IMG/VR virus record: IMGVR_UViG_3300006735_000170
Coordinates: 1 to 28,128 of that record
DNA from: a virus
Reading direction: 5' to 3' (one strand)
DNA length: 28,128 nt
Below the pieces are notes generated by a model. The model did not search any database, was not told where the DNA came from, and saw nothing but the letters and a program-made list of their open reading frames with translations. A program made the translations under genes and the position numbers. Positions 7,564 to 19,310 of this stretch are shown piece after piece. The number at the start of each line of letters is the position of its first letter. Positions within the stretch are counted from its first letter, which is position 1.

Positions 7564-7589
7564 GTAAATACGTATTTATGTAAATTTAC
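7564..7589. promoter_or_regulatory. Two adjacent AT-rich palindromes in an inter-gene gap
   Basis: TAAATACGTATTTA (7565-7578) and GTAAATTTAC (7580-7589) are perfect palindromes that share a TAAAT half-site, lying around the stop of the last glycosyltransferase. No GC stem plus T-run is present, so a classic terminator is unlikely; an operator or weak processing site is possible. Confidence 0.35.
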
Positions 7590-8323
7590 TCAATTTTAGC
7601 GCATTCGTCAATGAACTTGGCTTTAAAAGGATAGTTACCGTGGTGTGTTATTTCGGAGTTTATAAGCGCAAATATACGTCCTCCAGCCTTTCTAAAACGG
7701 TCACAGAACGCAAAATCTTCACCTATTATTTGTCCTGTTTCTTTAACAAACTCAGTATCCCAAAAGTTGTAAGAGTGTTTCATGTTTTTTTCTGTTTCAT
7801 TTATTAAATGATTTTGTCTTACTTTAAGTTCAGGATAGTAATTAATCATTCTTTCAAATGCTTCTCTTTTTATCAACATACAACCTGCAGGGCCTCGTTT
7901 TATTTCCATCCAACCATTAATACTCTCGAAGTTATCTTCATCCATTACTTTCATTGGAAAGTGAAAACCACCTTTATTCACAGGTATTTTATGTTTTTCG
8001 AATAATTCTTTTGATTTTTTCCAATCAATCCATTTCATAGGATATGGTATTAAAGTAACTTCCTCATCAGCCTCAACCATTTTAAATATATCTTGTTCAT
8101 TAAATTGAATATCAGTATCTACAAATAACATGTGAGTACAGTCCGAACTTAAAAACCCAGCAGTGCAACCATTTCTACCAAAAGTAACAATAGAACTTTT
8201 GTGTAAATGTAATGTAATACCAACTTTTCTTTTATGACATTCTGACTGTAGTGAAAAAACAGATCTCATATAGTGGATATCTACTAGACCTGTTGTTGGA
8301 GAAGCTAAATATAATTTAGTCAT
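7586..8323 (-). CDS. GT-A fold glycosyltransferase (paralogue 2)
   Basis: The 245-residue protein has GT-A landmarks. It has an N-terminal strand-helix region, LHLHKSS at 39-44, GRN at 49-51, and the metal/nucleotide-sugar motif DTD at 69-71 after a hydrophobic strand (HMLFV). It also has PAGCMLIKR at 145-153, GEDFAFC at 201-207 and a His at 227. The same landmarks recur in order in the adjacent 299-residue protein, so the pair looks like a tandem duplication. The likely activity is transfer of a sugar from an activated donor. The acceptor is unknown: a virion protein, phage DNA or host surface glycan are all possible. The start overlaps the upstream stop by 8 bases. Its stop lies just before a gap with two AT-rich palindromes. 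Confidence 0.75.
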   Translation of the reverse strand: MTKLYLASPTTGLVDIHYMRSVFSLQSECHKRKVGITLHLHKSSIVTFGRNGCTAGFLSSDCTHMLFVDTDIQFNEQDIFKMVEADEEVTLIPYPMKWIDWKKSKELFEKHKIPVNKGGFHFPMKVMDEDNFESINGWMEIKRGPAGCMLIKREAFERMINYYPELKVRQNHLINETEKNMKHSYNFWDTEFVKETGQIIGEDFAFCDRFRKAGGRIFALINSEITHHGNYPFKAKFIDECAKIE

Positions 8324-9215
8324 GTTTTATAAATTCATCCATGTACCGACCAATGTATTGATGTTCTCCCACATGCATAATATATTCATCTACTATAGCA
8401 AAAATCTTGCCTCCAACTTCTTTCCATAACTTACAAAAACCAAAATCTTCTCCTAAGTAAGTTTGCGTTTCCTTATCATGAACAGTATCAAAAAAATTGT
8501 AGTAATTATCTTTTTCTTCACTCTTGCCATTTATAATAGAACTTTGTTTTATTTTTCTATCAGGATATGTTTTTATTAATTTTTCAAACACTGAACGTTT
8601 AATTAACAAACAACCCGCAGGAGCATGGGTTATTTCTGTTATGCCTTTATTTACTACAATTTTACTAGCATCTTCTAACCTTACTGGATAAGTGCACGCA
8701 CCAGTTTCCATATCTGCTTCTGTTTTTATTAATCCTCTTTCAAATTTTTCTTTTAACTTTCCAAACTGTATGCTTTTCAATGGGTAAGGTACGCATATTA
8801 CATCTTTATCTGCATCAATCATTTTTCTAACCACATGCGGGCTAATTGCAATATCAGAATCTAAAAATAATAAATAATCTGCTTTAGTTTCTAAAAATGA
8901 TGCAACCGTAAGATTTCTACCTTGTGTAATAAGTGATGATTTATGCATTAGAAAAGACACGCTATCACCATTCTTTAAAAAATCTTTTTGTATTTCCAAA
9001 AGACATTGAGTATAATGAATGGATACTTCTGAATGCACAGGAGTGCCTACACATATTTTTATTTGTTGTTCTTCTTTAAATCCCTCCATTAATATTTTAG
9101 AGGTTGTTTTTTCTTTTTCAAACCAAATAGGTTCTGAAGGATCTTGTGGGGACACGTTTATCTCCTTTATTGTTTGATAGGTATCGTTATTAGACCAATT
9201 TTTACTTTTTTGCAT
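8316..9215 (-). CDS. GT-A fold glycosyltransferase (paralogue 1)
   Basis: The 299-residue protein resembles its downstream neighbour but has an N-terminal extension of about 50 polar residues. Landmarks are LMHKSS near 89, GRN near 99, DSD at 119-121 after the strand YLLFL, PAGCLLIKR at 199-207, GEDFGFC at 255-261 and His 281. The D-x-D motif is the usual metal and nucleotide-sugar site of GT-A enzymes. The start codon overlaps the preceding glycosyltransferase by 14 bases, so the three transferases are co-translated. The extension could be a docking segment. Substrates cannot be read from the sequence. The two GT-A genes may add different sugars or act in sequence. Confidence 0.75.
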   Translation of the reverse strand: MQKSKNWSNNDTYQTIKEINVSPQDPSEPIWFEKEKTTSKILMEGFKEEQQIKICVGTPVHSEVSIHYTQCLLEIQKDFLKNGDSVSFLMHKSSLITQGRNLTVASFLETKADYLLFLDSDIAISPHVVRKMIDADKDVICVPYPLKSIQFGKLKEKFERGLIKTEADMETGACTYPVRLEDASKIVVNKGITEITHAPAGCLLIKRSVFEKLIKTYPDRKIKQSSIINGKSEEKDNYYNFFDTVHDKETQTYLGEDFGFCKLWKEVGGKIFAIVDEYIMHVGEHQYIGRYMDEFIKHD

Positions 9216-10131
9216 TTATTACGTTGTATAAAAAATTATTCCACTCCATAGCTTTTTTATCCCAATTGTAATATTTTTTATAAAAAGCTTGTTGCATGTC
9301 TAAGCTATCTTGAATAGCTGTTTCATGAAGTGTTTTAGCAGCCATTTCAATAGCAGCAGCAAATGTTTGAGATAGTATTTTTAAGTCTTTTGTATAAGTA
9401 ACATACATAGGAAATTCTGCGCAGGTTTCATACAAAGCACCATAGTTAGTCACAATTGAATACAGTCCAGCAGATAAAGATTCAATAGCAGATATACAGG
9501 ATGTTTCCTCAAAAATACTTGGGTACACGTACATATTGTATTTGTTTAAATTTTCTAAAATAAAACTATTAGGTCTGTAACCAATATAATTGACGTTTGG
9601 TAATTCTGAAGCTTGTTTATAAAGAGGCACATATCGGTGATCATTTTGATTTTTAAAATCTTCACCGTATACTTCAGTTGAACTGTATACATCTAATTTT
9701 ATTAGTGGATTTTTTACTAGTTGCATTGCACCAAGTAATACACTCAAACCTCTCCATGGTGTATTCTGATGGATTATTCTTATTGGATCACCTTTTTTAA
9801 AAACTTTTCTTTTAGGAAAACTTGTGCAACCATTTTTAATTACATGACATTTTTCAGTTGGTATATCAAACATCATTCTAAATTTTTCATATGTCCAATT
9901 ACTATTAAAGACATACCAATCATATTTACTATGATTAGTTTTTTGACTAAACCAAGGTGCTATATTGGGCTGGTCGTAAGAATTTTTTTGCCAAAGAATA
10001 TTTGGTTTAGTTGGATGTAGAGGTATTTTTTCAGGTACAGAAGTAGTTATCTGTACTTGATCTAATAAGTTTTTATTAGCGTATTGATCTAAAAAACTAT
10101 GTTGTAGTTCAGTTCCACCTTGGGGATTCAT
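9202..10131 (-). CDS. GT4-like (GT-B fold) glycosyltransferase
   Basis: The 309-residue protein begins MNPQGGTELQ. The GGTE at 5-8 matches the glycine-rich acceptor-side loop of GT4 enzymes. It also has WRG at 126-128 in a GT-B-like position and the family's acidic motif, FEETSCISAIE, where E209 and E217 form the E-x7-E pattern that contacts the nucleotide sugar. The protein is shorter than bacterial GT4 enzymes (about 350-400 residues), but this compact phage version looks intact. It starts in a TAATG junction with the 72-residue gene and leads the three-transferase group. It probably adds a first or linking sugar, but the acceptor is unknown. Confidence 0.8.
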   Translation of the reverse strand: MNPQGGTELQHSFLDQYANKNLLDQVQITTSVPEKIPLHPTKPNILWQKNSYDQPNIAPWFSQKTNHSKYDWYVFNSNWTYEKFRMMFDIPTEKCHVIKNGCTSFPKRKVFKKGDPIRIIHQNTPWRGLSVLLGAMQLVKNPLIKLDVYSSTEVYGEDFKNQNDHRYVPLYKQASELPNVNYIGYRPNSFILENLNKYNMYVYPSIFEETSCISAIESLSAGLYSIVTNYGALYETCAEFPMYVTYTKDLKILSQTFAAAIEMAAKTLHETAIQDSLDMQQAFYKKYYNWDKKAMEWNNFLYNVINAKK

Positions 10132-10994: not shown

Positions 10995-11516
10995 CTATTT
11001 GAATCTGAAAAGCAAGTTGCCTGCGATTGTTTCATTATTTGAACATGAAGATACTCCATGTTTCATAAAACTAGGAAAAATAATCATTTGATCATCTTTA
11101 CATTGTATTTTTTTTGTAGCATCAAACAAATTTGCTACCTGATAAGATATTATTAAATCTTCATATGGTGAAATAAAATATGTTTTACTTTCTCCAACCT
11201 TTTTATAAATTACAAAACTAAAAACACAACCAGGATGTATGTGTGGCTCTTGATAATCTTTATCTAAATATTTATTTGTCCAAATTGATTGAAGAGCAAT
11301 TTCATATTCTTTCTTGTAAAGTTCATCTAAATTTTTAATCAATTGTTTAAATAAATATTTTTCAGAGTTTTCTGTAAGTTTGTTTTGAGAATAAAAAGAA
11401 GATACGGTATTTGATACCCAAGATTGTGTTTTTTTAAATTCTTGTTTTTCAAATTTAATTTTTTTTGATTCTATATTTGAAACAAATATAGGCATACCAA
11501 ATATGTTATAAATCAC
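10995..11516 (-). CDS. Putative 2OG-Fe(II) oxygenase-like protein (HxH variant)
   Basis: The 173-residue protein starts with GTG in a TAGTG junction, overlapping the nozzle stop by one base; GGAAGAAG upstream may serve as ribosome binding site. After a helical first half come a tryptophan-led strand (residues 79-90), HIHPG with H92 and H94, a strand VFSFVIY, then IIFPSFMKHGV with H153. This order matches the double-stranded beta-helix of phage 2OG-Fe(II) oxygenases of the 2OG-FeII_Oxy_5 type, where an H-x-H/D pair and a distal His bind iron. The usual 2OG-binding Arg about ten residues after the distal His is not obvious (NETIAGNLLF), so the enzyme may use another residue or be inactive. It is separated from the main oxygenase cluster by the nozzle gene. 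Confidence 0.6.
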   Translation of the reverse strand: MIYNIFGMPIFVSNIESKKIKFEKQEFKKTQSWVSNTVSSFYSQNKLTENSEKYLFKQLIKNLDELYKKEYEIALQSIWTNKYLDKDYQEPHIHPGCVFSFVIYKKVGESKTYFISPYEDLIISYQVANLFDATKKIQCKDDQMIIFPSFMKHGVSSCSNNETIAGNLLFRFK

Positions 11517-13444
11517 TATCTTCTTCCATCAGGTTGAAAATCAAATCTAAATAAACCTAATCTCCAATTTTCATCTATAGAATCGTTTGATATTTTCAAA
11601 GCTGCTAATCTTGCTCTTGCTCGAGTATCTATTTTAGTTGTAGAGCTACTTACAGAAAAAGGCCCTAACGGTGAGCTAGTTTGACTTTCCGAAGGAAAAT
11701 CTCTTAGTTGCATCGTCACTTCAGCATTACCTTGAAGAACTTTAAAGTCAGGAATAAATCTTCTTATCTTTATAAAAAATTCACCTTCTCCATCTGCATC
11801 TAAGTCAAAGTCACCAGATTGTATAAAAGCTTCAATAGCTGTTTTATTTCCGCTTGCATCAACTTCATTTACTCCTGTCTCATGTTCAAAATAGATAGAT
11901 TTACCTTGACCTATGGTAATTCCACTTACAGTTGGAAAATTAGGTGCACTGTTTTGAACAAATTTTGTTGCATAAGGTTTATCGAAAACTACTTTATCTA
12001 CATAAGAGCTTCTTGCTAGAGTTCCTGTTGTCCAAGTGTTTTCTAAATAATTATACGTTACTATTCTATTATTAAATTGACTTGAATCATCTGGGTAAAA
12101 CCATATTATTTCATTAAATAAACTATTGTGTGCACCAAATACCTGTTGTCCTGCAGCATAATTTAAACCAGGATTACTACCTGTTGTTTTAAAAACAAAG
12201 TCTTCTACCAAACAAGGAAGACGTTTGACTGATCCGTCATACACAAAAAATCCTCCTTCATCAGACATCCAATAAACAGTAGCATCAACAAACACTAAAG
12301 AGTTTTGCCCTATGATTCCACAGTTTGATCCTACTTGTCGTATAGAAAATGTAAAAGGTGGACCAACGAATTGCATTATATATGCTGAGGTATCTGTACC
12401 AACAAACGTGTAATCTTTTGCTTGAACAGCTCCCCTTATTTCAGTCCCAGAATCAAGCTGAAATGTTCCTGCTGTGTTAGTAGATGTTGGAGCGTACACT
12501 GTTCTATCTTCTTGATCAGAGAATCTAATAAACATTTTATCTTGAGTACCAGGAGTGCCAATAGTTGTTTCAGTGCCAAGATGAAATAAATGCCTATCTC
12601 TGTCTGATACAATAGTCATAACTGATTTTGTAGGATTGTTAGTAATAGGAGTCGCTCTAGTAGTAAGAGCATTACCATCTACTGCTATTGGGTTCCAATT
12701 GAATGATCTTCCATTATGTACAGTTGCAATTAATATTTGACCATAATTATCTAGTGACCACATTCCAGGATCTAAGACTACATTTGTAGTAGTTCTAGCT
12801 GTTCCCCAAGTTGAAGATCCCCACGTTCCAGCTCCCCAACCATAACCTCCAGTCGAAACCAAATCTCCTATTTTAATGTAAGGTAAAGGATCTAAAGTTC
12901 CGTTGTTTGATACTCCTGATTTAGTTTCAGTTGTAGGCATTAATATCGTAAATGTAGTTGTGGTTGGTGCAGTTTGAACTTCAAATAATTTATCGTCAAA
13001 ATCTGCAGCAGTGTAAACTGTGTTTGCGGTTGTGAATGATCCAGCGTTTTCAAAAGTCAATATATCACCCGCAGATAAATCGTGAGCTCCTGATGTTGTA
13101 ATAGTAACTGTTGCTGATGCATTAGTCGTTGTTATATTTGCTCCAGTAGATTGCCTATCTGGGTCAATGGGTGTGATATCATAGAAAGTTCCTGAGTGAT
13201 AAATATACAAACATCTATTCGTTCCTATTGCATTGTATTTTCGGCCATCTAAATCAGCGTATATGTGTTGTTTTCTAGCTGCACCTATCAATTCAGATGA
13301 AGTATCTTGAAGCCAACCACCAATTTTTTCAGGTTGACCGTACCTAAAACGTACATTATCCCCGTCTACCCAATTATTTTCATTTTGAGTATCTGTTTGC
13401 TGTTTATTAAATCCAGGTCTAAAAGGTATTTTTATTAAAGCCAT
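11516..13444 (-). CDS. Tail nozzle / packaged-DNA stabilisation protein (P22 gp10- or SU10 nozzle-like)
   Basis: I choose the ATG at 13444, where MALIKIPFRPGFN begins, over one six codons upstream. The N-terminus continues with the family pattern NWVDGDNVRFRYGQPEKIGG. Near residues 200-213 lies the W/G-rich loop GYGWGAGTWGSSTWG, which I recognise from podovirus nozzle proteins. The remainder is repeated beta segments (HLFHLGTE, YTFVGTDTSAYIMQF, TVYWMSDEGGFFVYDG, EIIWFYPDD) consistent with propeller-like repeats, ending with strands around IKIRRFIPDF. The likely role is to close the tail channel below the adaptors and hold packaged DNA. The length, about 642 residues, suits the family. The leader is very short and holds a TATAAT-like box but no clear ribosome binding site. 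Confidence 0.75.
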   Translation of the reverse strand: MALIKIPFRPGFNKQQTDTQNENNWVDGDNVRFRYGQPEKIGGWLQDTSSELIGAARKQHIYADLDGRKYNAIGTNRCLYIYHSGTFYDITPIDPDRQSTGANITTTNASATVTITTSGAHDLSAGDILTFENAGSFTTANTVYTAADFDDKLFEVQTAPTTTTFTILMPTTETKSGVSNNGTLDPLPYIKIGDLVSTGGYGWGAGTWGSSTWGTARTTTNVVLDPGMWSLDNYGQILIATVHNGRSFNWNPIAVDGNALTTRATPITNNPTKSVMTIVSDRDRHLFHLGTETTIGTPGTQDKMFIRFSDQEDRTVYAPTSTNTAGTFQLDSGTEIRGAVQAKDYTFVGTDTSAYIMQFVGPPFTFSIRQVGSNCGIIGQNSLVFVDATVYWMSDEGGFFVYDGSVKRLPCLVEDFVFKTTGSNPGLNYAAGQQVFGAHNSLFNEIIWFYPDDSSQFNNRIVTYNYLENTWTTGTLARSSYVDKVVFDKPYATKFVQNSAPNFPTVSGITIGQGKSIYFEHETGVNEVDASGNKTAIEAFIQSGDFDLDADGEGEFFIKIRRFIPDFKVLQGNAEVTMQLRDFPSESQTSSPLGPFSVSSSTTKIDTRARARLAALKISNDSIDENWRLGLFRFDFQPDGRR

Positions 13445-13450
13445 AACAAT

Positions 13451-13481
13451 ATTATACATCAATATTCTAATTCAATAAAGA
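13451..13481 (-). promoter_or_regulatory. TATAAT box immediately before the nozzle gene
   Basis: A perfect TATAAT lies at 13456-13451 on the minus strand, placed so that transcription would begin at or next to the nozzle ATG (13444), giving a leaderless message. No good -35 box is at 17 bases. No ribosome binding site is evident, which fits the idea only weakly. Confidence 0.25.
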
Positions 13482-13823
13482 TCAACCCGTTTTAGATATT
13501 ATTATATTCCATTCTGATTTAGCTAATAAATCGTCTAATAATATATCTCTAATATTATATTTTTCTATATATTCATGTATTTCATTTGTATCTAATATTA
13601 TCCAATGAGTATCTGTTTCGAATACCATCTTGTCTGCATTTGATTTAGTATCCCCAGTTTTCTCTAATTTTTTACCTTCAGCTTTGGACATGCCTCTAAC
13701 ATCAAATTTAAATATTTGATTAGATTTATTTTTAAGTCTCCCTTGCACATGCCATGTTTTTTGAGTTTTAGGATAAGTGATATCCTCTAAACATTGTTTT
13801 GCAAATCTTTTTAAAATTGTCAT
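13482..13823 (-). CDS. Unknown protein, 113 aa, after the oxygenase cluster
   Basis: I choose the ATG at 13823, which overlaps the preceding stop as ATGA, over an ATG five codons upstream. The product begins MTILKRFAKQCLEDITYP. It has a strand-rich middle (TWHVQGRLKNKSNQIFKFDV), a lysine-rich turn, a strand pair THWIILDT, and an acidic C-terminal helix containing YIEKYNIRDILLDDLL. It looks like a small alpha/beta domain, but I do not recognise the family. Co-translation with the oxygenases suggests a linked role, for example as partner or substrate adaptor; that is a guess from position only. Confidence 0.6.
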   Translation of the reverse strand: MTILKRFAKQCLEDITYPKTQKTWHVQGRLKNKSNQIFKFDVRGMSKAEGKKLEKTGDTKSNADKMVFETDTHWIILDTNEIHEYIEKYNIRDILLDDLLAKSEWNIIISKTG

Positions 13824-14452
13824 GTTCTTTTGAACCATGAAGGTAATCCTAAATGAGGACGCTTATCAAACATATTTTCTTTTGCTCCTGGTGTTTTAGA
13901 ATTATTATAATGTAAAAATACTTGTATACATTCTTTACCTTTAAATTTTTCTCTCCAATGTTCTAGTTCACATCCAGAATAAACCAACATATCTCCTTGT
14001 TCTAAATCTATCTTTTCACCTTTTAAACCTTGTTTACCAGATGGTTCTAAAAAAATAGGCCAATTGTCTCCTCCTAAATTCATCGTAGTTGAAATTTCAC
14101 AACTAAATCTATCTTTGTGTCTTTTAAGCTCATCACCTTTTTTATATATTCTAGCATAAGTATACGCAGGATATAATTTTAATCCTGTTACTTCTTCCAT
14201 TTTTGGTTGACATTTTAGCAACAAAGTTTCCATAGCTATATTGCTATACTGGCAGTATGTGTCAGGTATCTGTTGGTTTTTATTTTCATAGTGACCTATA
14301 ATATTTTCATAGGGTGAGAAGTATCTTCTATTCATACAAGTATCATAAACTTGTTTTTGCATACTAAAATAATTAGCAATAAATGCAGCTAACTCTTTTG
14401 ATATTGCTTTACGTATTACTGTATACTTTTTCTTTTTAAACACTTTTATCAT
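13820..14452 (-). CDS. 2OG-Fe(II) oxygenase (HKD...H)
   Basis: I choose the ATG at 14452 (MIKVFKKKKYTVI), in an ATGA overlap, over a GTG eight codons upstream. The 210-residue protein has YARIYKKGDELKRHKD, with H112 and D114 as iron ligands, followed by the strand EISTTMNLG. Further on are a GDMLVYSGCELEHWRE segment with H165 as third ligand, and the strand VFLHY. This is the 2OG-Fe(II) double-stranded beta-helix order. The C-terminal RPHLGLPSW tail is a feature I recall in marine phage relatives. The 2OG-anchoring basic residue is probably a Lys in EKFKGKE rather than Arg; I am less sure of that. The substrate is unknown; hydroxylation of a protein side chain or a nucleic acid base is possible. 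Confidence 0.75.
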   Translation of the reverse strand: MIKVFKKKKYTVIRKAISKELAAFIANYFSMQKQVYDTCMNRRYFSPYENIIGHYENKNQQIPDTYCQYSNIAMETLLLKCQPKMEEVTGLKLYPAYTYARIYKKGDELKRHKDRFSCEISTTMNLGGDNWPIFLEPSGKQGLKGEKIDLEQGDMLVYSGCELEHWREKFKGKECIQVFLHYNNSKTPGAKENMFDKRPHLGLPSWFKRT

Positions 14453-15075
14453 TTGAAAGGATATCCTAAATTCCACATTACTAAAGAATACCTTATACCT
14501 TTAGTTACAGGTTTAACTCTATGCCACACAAATGAAGGAAAAACAACAATTGAACCTTTGGATAATATTTCTGTGCATTTGTGAAAATTATTTTTTTTAT
14601 CAGGATCATTATTTCTAAAATCAAATTCTAGTTCTCCACCTTCATATTCAGATCCATCTGTCAATTGACACGTCATAGAAAGTTTTCTTATTTTTCCATT
14701 ATCAGGATGTCCTTTTTCTTTTTGATAGGGTCGGTCCCAACTATCACAATGCCAATCATAGTATTGATTTAATTTATATTTTGTAAATTGAATTGATTCT
14801 GATCTGTTCCAATCAAAATTCCAACCAGCCATACTATTTGCAGCATAGATATAAGGATGTAATTCTCTATATATCCAAGCATCGTTTAGCCATACTAAAT
14901 CAGAATTTCTCTTTTTTTTAATATCTTTAATCTGATCTTTAGTTAATTTTTTTTCATCATAACCACCTGTAATACCCATACTTTCTGAATGAGATAATCC
15001 ATATTTAATAATATCATCGCATACTTTAGGAGGTATTGCAGATTTAAAGTACCAATAATAGTTATAAAGATTCAT
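14449..15075 (-). CDS. PKHD-type 2OG-Fe(II) oxygenase (HCD...H...R)
   Basis: The 208-residue protein has the most complete oxygenase signature here. YYDWHCDSW holds H109 and D111, LSMTCQLTDGSEYEGGELEF forms the following strands, and VVFPSFVWHRV gives distal H185 with R195 ten residues later as the 2OG anchor. The fold and motif order match PKHD-type hydroxylases, relatives of prolyl 4-hydroxylase and PiuC that phages often carry. The start overlaps the preceding stop as ATGA. The length agrees with PKHD proteins of about 200-230 residues. I expect an active dioxygenase; a peptide prolyl or lysyl side chain is a reasonable but unproven substrate. Confidence 0.85.
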   Translation of the reverse strand: MNLYNYYWYFKSAIPPKVCDDIIKYGLSHSESMGITGGYDEKKLTKDQIKDIKKKRNSDLVWLNDAWIYRELHPYIYAANSMAGWNFDWNRSESIQFTKYKLNQYYDWHCDSWDRPYQKEKGHPDNGKIRKLSMTCQLTDGSEYEGGELEFDFRNNDPDKKNNFHKCTEILSKGSIVVFPSFVWHRVKPVTKGIRYSLVMWNLGYPFK

Positions 15076-15548
15076 GCGTAATTAAAATTAATCACAACTC
15101 TTCTTTTTTTATCTGTGCAAGAAGATCCTGTGTGTTTTATTGAAGAGTTAAATTCAACATAAGTATTTTCTTTACTTTTAACAATTTTGTTATTTTCGAA
15201 TTTAGTGTATCCATTACAAGTGTTCACATAAAATATTCCTGTTTTTCCTTCTGACTGATCTACATGCATGCCGTGTTCCGTGGTTTTAATATCTTTAGTC
15301 AACAAATTTGCTTTGATTTTATTGAGTTTTTTAAATTTTAATTTTTTGAGAATAGGTTCTACCATATCAAAATAATTTTTATCACAATTTATTTGACCGT
15401 CCTTAAAAAATATAAATGTAAATTGAAAATAATTATCATCTGTATCTACCACACCATTGTTGAAATACCAGGGCATGTAAATTCCCATCAAAAAATCTTT
15501 AAGTTTTGTAAATTCTTTTTTAGATAAAAAGTTATTATAAACTTTCAT
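15072..15548 (-). CDS. 2OG-Fe(II) oxygenase-like protein (HVD...H...R)
   Basis: The 158-residue protein starts inside the end of the previous gene (14-base overlap). It is shorter than its neighbours but keeps the key residues. EHGMHVDQ holds H95 and D97, a strand GIFYVNTCNGYTKF follows, and the SSIKHTGSSC segment has H139, with R150 eleven residues later in RRVVINFNY. This is the spacing expected for 2OG-Fe(II) oxygenases. The N-terminal half is a helix plus strands rich in K, F and N, typical of this AT-rich genome. The substrate is unknown. It is clearly divergent from the two following oxygenases, so the cluster is not a simple recent tandem duplication. Confidence 0.7.
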   Translation of the reverse strand: MKVYNNFLSKKEFTKLKDFLMGIYMPWYFNNGVVDTDDNYFQFTFIFFKDGQINCDKNYFDMVEPILKKLKFKKLNKIKANLLTKDIKTTEHGMHVDQSEGKTGIFYVNTCNGYTKFENNKIVKSKENTYVEFNSSIKHTGSSCTDKKRRVVINFNYA

Positions 15549-16035
15549 AAGTTATTGTTTGCACATAATTTATTTCTTCAGAATTATTTGTTATGTGGTA
15601 CGTATTAGTTGATGGAAACATAATAAACATATTGTTTAATAGTTCTATATCCCAACTTTGTCCTTTAACTCTATTATCATCGTAGTATATTTTAACCAAA
15701 CAATCTTGAAGATTCACACCATATAATAATACAAAATCACATGAATCATTTGGATTCATAAGATCAACCTCCAATAAAGGAGGAGTATTACTTTTTGCAT
15801 TATAAACATTACCCCAAGAACGTTTTTGTCTTAATTTAAGTTTATATTTTAGATACATGTTTTCTGCTATGTAATTATTTAATTTATCCCAGTTTTTTGA
15901 AAATTTATGTTTAGTGTTATTAATTGAACACTCTAAAATATTTGCTCTTAATTCATTACTATCTATCTCAAAATCTTTTGGCATTGATACTTCGCCATAA
16001 TATAATGCTTGTTCAGATAGTATTTTTTTATTCAT
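15535..16035 (-). CDS. Degenerate oxygenase-like protein, 166 aa
   Basis: The ATG at 16035 follows GGTGG at good spacing. The C-terminal half keeps the strand order of the neighbouring oxygenases: LLEVDLMNPNDSCDFVLLYG, then FIMFPSTNTYHITNN with H147 at the distal-ligand position. However, no H-x-D pair is visible where it is expected; only E89 and D91 sit there. No Arg follows H147. It may be a catalytically dead double-stranded beta-helix protein acting as partner or scaffold for the oxygenases, or a separate small structural protein. It is first in the cluster, after a 30-base gap holding a possible promoter. The function is not assigned; the fold call is an inference. Confidence 0.5.
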   Translation of the reverse strand: MNKKILSEQALYYGEVSMPKDFEIDSNELRANILECSINNTKHKFSKNWDKLNNYIAENMYLKYKLKLRQKRSWGNVYNAKSNTPPLLEVDLMNPNDSCDFVLLYGVNLQDCLVKIYYDDNRVKGQSWDIELLNNMFIMFPSTNTYHITNNSEEINYVQTITYESL

Positions 16036-16044
16036 GCCACCAAT

Positions 16045-16073
16045 ACTTTAATTTATGGTATCTATTTATGCAA
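16045..16073 (-). promoter_or_regulatory. Weak sigma-70-like promoter candidate before the oxygenase cluster
   Basis: On the minus strand, TTGCAT (16073-16068) and TAAAGT (16050-16045) are separated by 17 bases in one of the few non-coding gaps. The spacing is ideal, but the -10 box is a poor match, and AT-rich sequence gives such hits by chance. Confidence 0.2.
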
Positions 16074-16497
16074 GAAAATTAGTAAGATCCCAAGCTTGCG
16101 TACCCTCATTCCAAACATATATCCATGCGTGAGTTTCAGCACTATTTTGTGCAGATTGTTCCTCAGTCAAAGAAGGAGGATCACCAGCTGGTGATTTCCA
16201 TGTAGCTGATTCAATATGTTTTACCCAAGACGGATGTGGTTGTGGAGGCCAAAAAATTTGATTTACCTCGTCCCATGTAAAACCTATACCTGCAAAGTTT
16301 CCTCTAAAAGGAGTGCCTCCTAAACTGTGTTGATTAGCTTGTGTATTGTAAGACGTTTGAATCCACATATGTGCAGGCCAATTGCTATGTGTTTCTAAAT
16401 ATGCTTGTCCTGAAGCTTCATCTGTAATGTGTTCGTTATCAACTACATTTACTGTTAGTACTTCATTATTTTCATTTATTTTTGCAAAATGTGCCAT
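16066..16497 (-). CDS. Conserved marine-phage structural protein (MAHFAKI... family)
   Basis: The 143-residue protein begins MAHFAKINENNEVLTVNVVD and carries WIQTSYN, NFAGIGFTWDE, IFWPPQPHPSWV and a C-terminal WIYVWNEGTQAWDL. This set of tryptophan- and proline-rich motifs is characteristic of a family I recognise from cyanophages and pelagiphages, located beside tail fibre genes. Its fold appears beta-rich, with repeated W/Y-G motifs. The role is not established; a tail or fibre accessory protein is most likely. It starts after AGGT in a short spacer behind the glycine-rich gene and ends before the oxygenase cluster. Confidence 0.7.
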   Translation of the reverse strand: MAHFAKINENNEVLTVNVVDNEHITDEASGQAYLETHSNWPAHMWIQTSYNTQANQHSLGGTPFRGNFAGIGFTWDEVNQIFWPPQPHPSWVKHIESATWKSPAGDPPSLTEEQSAQNSAETHAWIYVWNEGTQAWDLTNFLA

Positions 16498-16505
16498 ATT
16501 TTTAC

Positions 16506-17453
16506 CTATTGAAATTTATATTTTATAACAACGATACCAGATCCTCCTGCTCCTCGTCCGCCTCCAAAATTATCTCCATTTCCTCCGTCGCCCGTGTTTG
16601 CTCCACCAATTGTACCTCCACTTTGACCTCTACCGCCAGCTCCATAAGTTCCTGAATTTGGAGCAGGGCCTATATTAGGATTTACATCTTTAGCATTTCC
16701 GCCAGCTCCTCCTGGGCCACTTGAACCTGCAGAATTTGTTCCGCCACCGCCTGATCCATTATTACCTGGGCCACCGCCATTACCAAAATTTGATGCTCCT
16801 GGGCTTGATTGTGAAGGTTGAGTTGCTGATGTATTACCAGGTCTCGCACCTCCTCCGCCTCCTCCGCATCCGCCAGATTCAGCTCCTGAAGAAGAAGGGC
16901 CTCCTCCGCCTCCGTGTCCACCGCCTAAACCTGTATAGCCTAGACCAGTTGAATTAGATCCTGGAGTTCCAGGTGTTGGGTCAGCATTCGGACCGTTTCC
17001 ACCGCCTCCGATTACAATCGGATAACTTCCTGGACTTGCTGAAACAGTATAGCCATCACTATCGAGAACCATGCCGCCTCCGCCGCCTCCTCCTCCGTAG
17101 AAAGAGCCGCCGCCTCCCGCTCCCGCTACAACGACAGCAGTTACAGAATCTGATCCTGCAGGATTACCAACACTACTCACAGTAAAAGTTCCATTACCTG
17201 TAAACACATGAATTTTATAATCTCCAGAAGTGGTCACTGTTCCGCCACTTGCAGAAATAAATGATGCAGCTGTTGCCGCTCTAAATTGACCAATCGCAAT
17301 TTGTCCAGAGGAAGGAATAGGGCCGTTTGGAGCTGGAGCTCCTGAAGGAACTAAAGGGCCTCCAGAATAATACTCTGATAATGCAATTGGATTTGACCCA
17401 CCAAATTCAGTTTGTATATCACTTAGACCAACGTTTGTACTAGGAACAGACAT
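16506..17453 (-). CDS. Glycine-rich tail-fibre tip / adhesin-like protein
   Basis: The 315-residue protein starts in a TAATG junction with the fibre gene, with AAGGAG in good position. Residues about 1-60 are a small module with SNPIALSEYY and repeated Pro/Ser. Residues 75-110 form strands (KIHVFTGNGTFTV, VTAVVVAGAGGGG). Residues about 108-305 are dominated by glycine runs split by short polar segments, closing with GIVVIKYKF. This resembles the glycine-rich distal adhesins of phage fibres, where glycine helices pack in layers and surface loops contact the receptor, as in T-even gp38. The gene is visibly more GC-rich than its surroundings because of Gly codons. A receptor-binding role is inferred. 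Confidence 0.7.
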   Translation of the reverse strand: MSVPSTNVGLSDIQTEFGGSNPIALSEYYSGGPLVPSGAPAPNGPIPSSGQIAIGQFRAATAASFISASGGTVTTSGDYKIHVFTGNGTFTVSSVGNPAGSDSVTAVVVAGAGGGGSFYGGGGGGGGMVLDSDGYTVSASPGSYPIVIGGGGNGPNADPTPGTPGSNSTGLGYTGLGGGHGGGGGPSSSGAESGGCGGGGGGARPGNTSATQPSQSSPGASNFGNGGGPGNNGSGGGGTNSAGSSGPGGAGGNAKDVNPNIGPAPNSGTYGAGGRGQSGGTIGGANTGDGGNGDNFGGGRGAGGSGIVVIKYKFQ

Positions 17454-18442
17454 TATTTTTTCTCCTTACTTAAATTTTCTATTTTATCATTTAGTGTTTT
17501 TACTGCTTCAATTAATAAACATGTTAGTCTATCATATTTTACAGCTTTCACACCATCAGACCTTTGAGCCACTGCCTCTGGTAAAACTTTTTCTACCTCT
17601 TGTGCAATAACTCCAACATCTTTTTTTCTAACAAAATAACCATCTTCACCGCCTCTTTTATCTATATAATCTTTTTTCCAATCAAACAGCACACCATTTA
17701 ATTTTTTTATAGATTCTAATGGTTCAGGAATATTAACAATATTTTCTTTGAGTGCAACATCTGAAGAAAAGAAAGCAGTCACATCATTAGTAGCTCTTAT
17801 TTCTCCCGTAGTACCTGAAGCAGCTGTTCCTACTCCAAAAGAATCAAACTGGACATCGTTAGATGTGCCTAAAGATAACGAAGTTCTTGCGGTTGCTCCT
17901 GACTCTGCAGTAAATGTAGAACCATTCCCAACAATAAAATTACCATCAGAAGTTGCTAATCCTGCAATTGCAGCAAGTCCAGCATCATATGCTTGAACAT
18001 CTGTACCAACCACTAAACCAGCAAGCTGATTTGTTATTTCTACAACATTTGTTCCGTCTGCATAAACAATTACAGCATTTTTTTCTGTAGCACTAAAAGT
18101 AAAACCAGTTCCACTTACTGTTTTGAATTGAACTGTATTTGCACCTGATGTTCCGTTTACTAAAGTATATACTTTTTCAATACCATTAGGAATCGTTACA
18201 ATTTGATCTCCTGTAATTGTTCCTATAAATTTTATTACTGCATTTCTAGCGTTTGATAATGCTCCATCACTCATCAATAAATTAGTTGTTTGAGCACCCC
18301 CAGCTATTGATACCTCTTGATATCCTGCAATTGCTTGTTGAACTAAATTTAAATTTGTGTTGGTTTTATCTCCCCAGGTTCCAGAGTTAGCCCCTGTAAC
18401 CATTAATTCTAGTTTTAAATCTGTTGAGTAACTTGATGTCAT
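17453..18442 (-). CDS. Second tail fibre with C-terminal Peptidase S74 chaperone domain
   Basis: The 329-residue protein opens MTSSYSTDLKLELMVTGANS and GTWGDKTNTNLNLVQQAI, an N-terminal module known from marine phage fibres. A repeat block with GATARTSLSLGTS leads to the C-terminal chaperone domain. SSDVALKENI has S227 and K232, the Ser-Lys pair five residues apart that self-cleaves the domain, and it is followed by NGVLFDW, DVGVIAQEVEKVLPE and KAVKYDR. The domain ends in a coiled coil. It should fold the fibre trimer and then be released. The domain is about two-thirds identical, by eye count, to that of the 716-residue fibre. A ribosome binding site AAGGAT precedes the ATG. Confidence 0.85.
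   Translation of the reverse strand: MTSSYSTDLKLELMVTGANSGTWGDKTNTNLNLVQQAIAGYQEVSIAGGAQTTNLLMSDGALSNARNAVIKFIGTITGDQIVTIPNGIEKVYTLVNGTSGANTVQFKTVSGTGFTFSATEKNAVIVYADGTNVVEITNQLAGLVVGTDVQAYDAGLAAIAGLATSDGNFIVGNGSTFTAESGATARTSLSLGTSNDVQFDSFGVGTAASGTTGEIRATNDVTAFFSSDVALKENIVNIPEPLESIKKLNGVLFDWKKDYIDKRGGEDGYFVRKKDVGVIAQEVEKVLPEAVAQRSDGVKAVKYDRLTCLLIEAVKTLNDKIENLSKEKK
17456..17767 (-). repeat. Copy of S74 chaperone-domain coding sequence (second copy 19317-19625)
   Basis: This stretch encodes the self-cleaving chaperone domain of the 329-residue fibre. It is a diverged duplicate of 19317-19625 at the end of the 716-residue fibre, collinear and similar at DNA and protein level, with the preceding segment (GEIRATND) also shared. 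Confidence 0.75.
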
Positions 18443-18461: not shown

Positions 18462-19310
18462 CTATGCAGCTAAATCAACCTCCGTCCAAACATTAGAAAC
18501 ACCTGGATCTACTTCAGACCAACCTGAAACAATCACTTGTCCAATAGACATAGAAGCAGAAACTCCAGTAGTTTCAGCACTTGCATCATCTGTTAAAACT
18601 TCACCAACCGCAGTTGTTAATTGTGATCCTGTTACAGTGTATGTTGAATTATGATTGACACTTCCAACAGCAGTTGAAAGTTGAATACCTGATAATGAAA
18701 TATTTGCATCTCCAGTTATACTTTCATTTCCTATAGCAGACGTTAAAGAAATTCCTGTTACACTCACATCTGCATCTGCATCAGTGTCTTCATTACCTAA
18801 AGCAGACGTTAAAGAAATTCCTGTAACTGGAACATCTGCATTTGCTCGCGCAGTTTCATTTCCTATAGCAGACGCTAAAGAAATTCCTGTTACTGCAACT
18901 TCTATTAAAGAAAAAGCATTTACTGAACCAACATTAGAAGATAATGCTATTCCACTTACTACTTGAGTTGCATCACCTTCTGGTACTTCTTCTCCTACAG
19001 CAGACGCTAAAGAAATTCCTGAAACCGAAACATCAGCATTTGCAGATACTACAATATTTACAGGAGAAATTGTCGATAAACTTTCTGAAGCGAAAGGACT
19101 TTCTCCAAAAGCTGAGAGTGTATCAGTAAAAGCAAAACTATTTGTTATAGATAAAGGTATGCCAGTGACAACAGCGTCTACTCCTATTGTACCCGAAATA
19201 CCTACATTGTTAATTGCTGTTGAAGATGAAATTCCTGTAACATCTACAAAAATACTAGAAGACTCTTGCGAAAAGGCTGTTGTAGAAAATGGACTAGTAG
19301 CAAAAGCCAT
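18462..19310 (-). CDS. Beta-repeat fibre/tail protein with 22-residue repeats
   Basis: The 282-residue protein consists largely of V-T-G-I-S-L-T-S-A-x-G-N-E type units repeating every 22 residues, more degenerate at both ends. Alternating short hydrophobic strands with GN/GE turns suggest a stacked beta structure such as a beta-solenoid or a fibrous shaft. The N-terminus (MAFATSPFSTTAFSQ) is Ser/Thr-rich, and the C-terminus has two similar W-S-E-V-D segments (WSEVDPG, WTEVDLA). It lies between two chaperone-tipped fibre genes, only three bases after one of them; GGAG within the previous stop region is the ribosome binding site. I recall related repeats in marine phage fibre proteins. A shaft, spacer or decoration role is inferred. 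Confidence 0.65.
   Translation of the reverse strand: MAFATSPFSTTAFSQESSSIFVDVTGISSSTAINNVGISGTIGVDAVVTGIPLSITNSFAFTDTLSAFGESPFASESLSTISPVNIVVSANADVSVSGISLASAVGEEVPEGDATQVVSGIALSSNVGSVNAFSLIEVAVTGISLASAIGNETARANADVPVTGISLTSALGNEDTDADADVSVTGISLTSAIGNESITGDANISLSGIQLSTAVGSVNHNSTYTVTGSQLTTAVGEVLTDDASAETTGVSASMSIGQVIVSGWSEVDPGVSNVWTEVDLAA
18604..19025 (-). repeat. 66-bp in-frame tandem repeats
   Basis: A GCAGACGYTAAAGAAATTCC-like core (plus-strand reading) recurs at 18736, 18802, 18868 and 19000, with a weaker copy at 18670 and a diverged one near 18934. All are multiples of 66 bases apart. The repeat encodes 22 residues and stays in frame. Confidence 0.85.

Follow-up and report, generated by a model that had tools for sequence, protein, structure and literature searches.

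A 2-oxoglutarate oxygenase gene array behind a glycine-rich tail fibre in marine phages, and its possible part in adhesin prolyl hydroxylation

Clusters of genes for 2-oxoglutarate (2OG)-Fe(II) oxygenases are already known from marine phages. Wittmers et al. (2022; PMC9599517) give eight non-orthologous 2OG genes for the HTVC023P-type pelagiphages, co-located with a 'ferrochelatase'; Sullivan et al. (2010; PMC3037559) report multiple 2OG genes in most cyanomyoviruses, and a gene listed there as 'hypothetical with ferrochelatase domain'; and the cyanophage S-SCSM1 has 24 2OG genes (PMC9602691). Here we analyse the window, that is, the whole 28,128-base IMG/VR virus contig IMGVR_UViG_3300006735_000170, whose kin are the Pelagibacter phages HTVC023P, HTVC033P, and 023Pt_psg01, and in which a run of four genes (13820–16035, minus strand), termed D, C, B, and A in transcription order, follows the genes of a glycine-rich tail fibre and of its small partner, T. 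The window belongs to the same phage group as the HTVC023P-type sets, and multi-gene 2OG sets occur in both; but the excerpt of PMC9599517 accepts the ferrochelatase at face value and proposes neither a substrate nor a link to the tail, whereas here that protein is a 2OG oxygenase tied to the fibre–T unit. The cyanophage genes belong to the same kind of enzyme families as those of the window, but were described as metabolic or DNA-repair functions. The first-pass annotation of this DNA made no claim that the arrangement was new, and it is known in kind; what we add is the relabelling of the 'ferrochelatase' and of an 'endonuclease V', a conserved dead copy, a fixed fibre–T unit, and a link to proline.

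That annotation had described four mutually diverged reading frames overlapping by 4 to 14 bases, three with an iron-binding triad and a fourth with the fold order only; all four are present on the minus strand, and these details held. C (15072–15548; 158 amino acids) has H95-x-D97 (HVD), H139, and R150; B (14449–15075; 208 amino acids), a predicted PKHD/prolyl 4-hydroxylase (P4H)-type enzyme, has HCD at 109–111, H185, and R195, and matches PF13640 (3.5e-15) and the PKHD-type YbiX/PiuC profiles; and A (13820–14476; 218 amino acids from the annotated GTG) has HKD at 120–122 and H173, which residue is H165 when counted from the ATG. The ATG at 14452 is the more likely start of A than the GTG at 14476. 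The D–C–B–A overlaps are 14, 4, and 4 bases, the B/A overlap becoming 28 if the GTG is used. The triad of A (H120, D122, H173) is invariant in 182/182 relatives, down to 29% identity, as are R109, R175, Q185, and H189, and both histidines of C are invariant in 102/102 relatives, so that these triads are not due to chance; in B, His185 is kept in 196/196 relatives and His109 in 172/196. The fold checks that the annotation had proposed place the proteins in the double-stranded beta-helix fold of the 2OG oxygenases, B and C by profile, and A and D by AlphaFold models, that of A having a predicted local distance difference test (pLDDT) score of 96.6 and matching in the PDB the Pseudomonas P4H (1.6e-9), PHD2 and other PHDs, and further 2OG oxygenases. 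Fusion proteins of A and B exist, and phrog_3531 implies the same. The C-family profile aligns to the B family at E 1e-15. A recent tandem duplication of one enzyme is unlikely: the paralogues barely match by profile, yet the A orthologues of a myovirus are 45% identical, and the enzyme families of the run are old and distinct. A fifth 2OG gene, E (10995–11516, minus strand), had been overlooked; its product has an HxH...H motif and matches PF13759 (9.7e-8), phrog_81 (3.5e-26), and TIGR02466, the last at 4e-8, which value is under that model's cut-off.

Judged by its sequence and model, A, the last gene of the run, is thus a 2OG oxygenase with a predicted enzyme activity, and the label of its family (phrog_2954; 154 phage records matched) as 'ferrochelatase' is wrong, because A has the invariant HxD...H and the oxygenase fold matches, and because 0/67 family members match the Pfam ferrochelatase model. 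No chelatase is among the listed PDB fold matches of A, so that we reject a ferrochelatase; the BFVD matches include an S-SM1 phage protein named 'Ferrochelatase' beside prolyl 4-hydroxylase-like viral proteins. By its profile matches, the 'DNA endonuclease V' (denV) label of phrog_274 in cyanophages, the family of C, is likewise a mislabel of a 2OG oxygenase family: 9/15 C-family members match PF13640, and 0 of the same 15 match a glycosylase/EndoV model. For C itself, the searches gave no DenV/EndoV match in Pfam or by sequence in the PDB, 2OG profiles matching instead, and its identity as a T4 DenV/endonuclease V is rejected.

The oxygenase identity given in the first-pass annotation stood for A, B, and C; D (15535–16035, minus strand; 166 amino acids) is better read from its alignment and model as a conserved pseudo-oxygenase, with the fold kept and the iron site lost, than as a further enzyme. 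The best PDB matches of its AlphaFold model (pLDDT 81.7) are to 2OG oxygenases and prolyl hydroxylases (E down to 1.4e-7), and 2OG oxygenases dominate the matches. Among 82 homologues, the distal iron histidine is replaced by Tyr146 in 74, position 89—the proximal one—is other than His in 74, and Asp91 is kept in 71; D thus retains Asp91, whereas position 89 is E, N, or D and position 146 is Tyr. Family-profile searches, Pfam and phrog included, returned no match for D, and PDB sequence searches gave no useful match for D or T. The distant relatives L099, L101, L103, L170, L175, and L180 keep HxD/N...H, which link to D is good but not certain because the first-round E-values were modest (6e-5 to 1e-3). 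D is conserved and heads most runs, and 35 columns are invariant among 50 close members, so that its retention must have some purpose. The TlxI/TlxJ heterodimer offers a precedent for a helper subunit of this kind: TlxI, of the 2OG fold and lacking a catalytic feature, assists its active partner (PMC12141560; PDB 7VBQ), 7VBQ/7VBR being among the fold matches of D; TlxI, however, serves a fungal natural-product pathway and lacks the 2OG-binding Arg, whereas D lacks the iron histidines.

The position of the run, which had been placed between tail-fibre and nozzle genes, was also confirmed. In the window, transcription of the minus strand passes from an S74 fibre gene (17453–18442) to the gene of a fibre or adhesin with a C-terminal Gly_rich_2 repeat domain (16506–17453; PF21722 above cut-off, E 1.4e-8, in agreement with its composition), then to T (16066–16497; phrog_7759, 3e-29), whose product might be a fibre chaperone or a tip protein, and then to D, C, B, and A, a 118-codon reading frame, a phrog_3287 virion gene, E, a glycosyltransferase gene, and two phrog_1574 genes. 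In a survey of conservation such as had been suggested, the cluster recurred in wider phage sets and in 80 close IMG/VR loci, the latter with the order T-D-(C)-B-(E)-(C)-A and variable middle members, and the 2OG runs reached nine genes in the wider locus sets. T lies immediately next to the run where both are on one strand and otherwise faces it from the opposite strand, and in pelagimyophages the module is inverted yet still beside T. The gene directly upstream of T was Gly-rich in 300/301 cases examined, with an array or without, and PF21722 was above cut-off in 10/10 sampled genes of this kind; the fibre–T pairs repeat up to four times, with the 2OG run after the last pair. In L247, L251, L254, L264, L270, and L293, two to four tandem pairs with differing fibres look like a stack of alternative adhesins. 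The Gly-rich fibre is not the exclusive partner of the array, which notion we rejected, for the fibre occurs without arrays and HTVC027P has an array without such a fibre; of the three consecutive 2OG genes of HTVC027P (L235, 7292–8953), just one is named in its database record and in a 2025 paper.

The first-pass annotation had suggested a modification of repeated virion residues, for which idea the quantitative lead is now the proline of the Gly-rich fibre domain, whose hydroxylation is a prediction. We measured proline in the Gly-richest 200 amino acids of each fibre and tested all 20 residues after proline-rich inserts (NTPPVSPPQG) had been noticed in array-bearing fibres. In the window fibre, glycine makes up 40.5% of this segment and proline, with 15 residues, 7.5%. 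Fibre proline stood at 5.6% where an array was present (n = 130) and at 1.6% where none was (n = 80, including Melnitz-type T loci fetched later), there being no difference in the other genes (3.5 versus 3.6%) or in the N-terminal region of these fibres (3.7 versus 3.5%); the guanine-plus-cytosine (GC) content of the array loci was lower, not higher, than that of the array-free loci. Array presence changes, by gain or loss, about 17 times on the T tree, and phylogenetic generalised least squares on that tree (205 loci), the Gly-rich segment having 5.9% proline beside an array and 1.5% otherwise, related proline to the array with p = 6e-12 on the log scale and 1.3e-7 at lambda = 1. With GC as a covariate, proline had p = 3.6e-7, followed by Asp (p = 2e-3), every other residue being above 0.01, and the N-terminal region gave p = 0.44. 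The effect held with other-gene proline as a covariate, with segments of three sizes from 150 to 250 amino acids, and at GC < 0.42, as well as in the T-fetched loci alone (2.8 versus 1.5%, p = 1.9e-7) and in the HTVC025P/L271-type loci alone (2.8%, n = 63, with the array versus 1.0%, n = 16; p = 6e-7). In the complete genome of HTVC023P the four array-linked fibres have 8.5–13.5% proline, as against 2.0% in a fifth Gly-rich protein that is not encoded near the array; the array fibres of other complete genomes have 8.0–8.5% (023Pt_psg01), 6.5% (HTVC033P), 5.5% (Mosig), and 4.0% (HTVC008M). Fibre proline is 1.0% in HTVC025P, which phage has the same host species as HTVC023P and, like it and HTVC033P, is grown on Pelagibacter HTCC1062, and 1.5% in CRP-207, neither genome having any PF13640 or phrog_81 match; and 1.0% in Melnitz-2, whose 2OG genes lie only elsewhere. 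A narrower proposal, that gene A drives the proline content (7.8 versus 2.8%), was dropped as confounded with lineage.

Because the adhesins are unusually proline-rich where such a block is adjacent, we consider that the array probably hydroxylates prolines of the neighbouring phage-encoded Gly-rich tail adhesin as a tail-maturation module, which reading we favour with modest confidence. The run, presumably co-transcribed with the adhesin and T and expressed late, would supply A, B, and C, which together with the separately encoded E would take Fe(II), O2, and 2-oxoglutarate to hydroxylate that phage's own adhesin, chiefly at prolines of the polyglycine-type domain and its loops, as for collagen prolines. 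D would probably have a structural role, either pairing with one of the active enzymes or steering it. In collagen, hydroxyproline stabilises extended helices; in the phage, hydroxylation may stiffen extended Gly/Pro helices or change the surface that contacts the receptor. The A–B fusions count toward this proposal, as do the nearest solved structures of A and D, which are mostly prolyl hydroxylases (the Pseudomonas P4H and human PHD2/EGLN), B in turn matching the PKHD/PF13640 models; the sequence identities to those enzymes are very low (about 8–17%), and a prolyl substrate is putative. The gp38 of S16/PP01 is a Gly-rich tail-tip adhesin built as a polyglycine-II sandwich with receptor-binding loops (PMC12892980), and the window fibre, whose own polyglycine-II architecture is putative, shares with it the idea of a glycine-rich adhesin at the tail tip; but no hydroxylase array is described for gp38 in that work, and the window fibre had no match in a PDB sequence search.

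Several points weigh against hydroxylation of the adhesin by the array. The link of proline to the array is a correlation, and part of the proline data is not independent because it was array-bearing fibres that first prompted the hypothesis. Once GC is corrected for, a small proline shift of 0.65 points (p = 3e-4) is seen in other genes too. The higher proline of the loci with A cannot be separated from lineage, and two loci with A from another lineage have 3.5 and 0.5%. Gly-rich fibre–T units without arrays are common, so that hydroxylation is not essential for this type of fibre, and HTVC027P has its three 2OG genes, inverted, at the same tail site and no Gly_rich_2 domain. The literature searched, which was partial, contained no report of hydroxylation of phage tail proteins.

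If, as one alternative, the enzymes acted on host metabolism—through 2-oxoglutarate drawdown or a nitrogen- or iron-stress response—they would be classic auxiliary metabolic genes located in the tail region by chance. Published work offers backing in 2OG modulation (PMC3037559), seasonal enrichment (PMC11561400), and an iron link (PMC12753301); but with A an oxygenase the iron story loses its 'ferrochelatase' component, and the fixed place behind fibre–T units in podo- and myophages, even when inverted, the proline correlation, and the conserved inactive D are all left unexplained. We consider this alternative unlikely. A comparably small probability attaches to the array modifying another virion protein or residue, such as T itself or the Asp/Asn of the fibre repeats, in which case the difference in proline would be a by-product: HTVC027P retains an array without a Gly-rich fibre, Asp is slightly raised too (the p = 2e-3 given above), and several enzymes suggest several targets, but among the 20 residues proline gives much the strongest signal, and T as the sole substrate is unlikely since phages that lack 2OG genes conserve it as well. 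Less credible is an AlkB/TET-like oxidation of nucleic acids or nucleotides followed by glycosyltransfer, to which the downstream glycosyltransferase and phrog_1574 genes (one weakly GT2/Anp1-similar) and very faint profile similarities to TET-like and m6A-demethylase enzymes (E 0.1–0.4) would speak; the window proteins, however, gave no AlkB or TET/JBP Pfam match at E <= 1, just 2/67 A relatives touched PF13532, the genes lie in the virion block, and the fold matches are prolyl-hydroxylase-like. A modification of host-surface lipid or lipopolysaccharide in the style of LpxO or phytanoyl-CoA hydroxylation, likewise very improbable, could draw on the same glycosyltransferase genes, but leaves the proline link unexplained, and none of the window proteins matches a phytanoyl-CoA or aspartyl/asparaginyl hydroxylase family.

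As to the remaining genes, the 118-amino-acid frame after A (13482–13838, minus strand) is found in only some relatives and has no assigned function, and the phrog_3287 product (11516–13462, minus strand; 3.8e-84), a 'stabilization' or nozzle-like virion structural protein, forms the downstream boundary of the array. Downstream of this nozzle gene, 7586–10131 holds the GT4-like glycosyltransferase gene and the two phrog_1574 genes, whose products could glycosylate hydroxylated residues; HTVC023P and HTVC027P carry similar genes. A 282-amino-acid virion-operon protein (18462–19310) with Asp/Asn-rich repeats of about 25 residues (VTGISLTSAIGNE...) is another possible modification target. In HTVC008M (L085, 14343–16302) a further 2OG gene overlaps a gene annotated as a tryptophan halogenase, beside the terminase genes, and in the SAR11 phage Mosig (L086, 4312–5548) genes annotated as phycocyanobilin reductase and heme oxygenase lie directly next to the 2OG run.

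With the widespread 'ferrochelatase' relabelled, at least two publications (PMC9599517 and PMC11561400) lose the basis for a viral heme or iron-insertion account, and the naming of the fibre as a substrate class narrows the open question to one mass-spectrometry experiment on existing isolates. We propose more tentatively that marine phages mature the Gly/Pro-rich tail adhesins that they themselves encode through prolyl hydroxylation in the manner of collagen, by a pathway that includes a dedicated pseudo-enzyme subunit, and that protein hydroxylation is in this way a step in tail assembly and host recognition; if this is true, phages would join the organisms that harden or tune glycine- and proline-rich fibres by hydroxylation.

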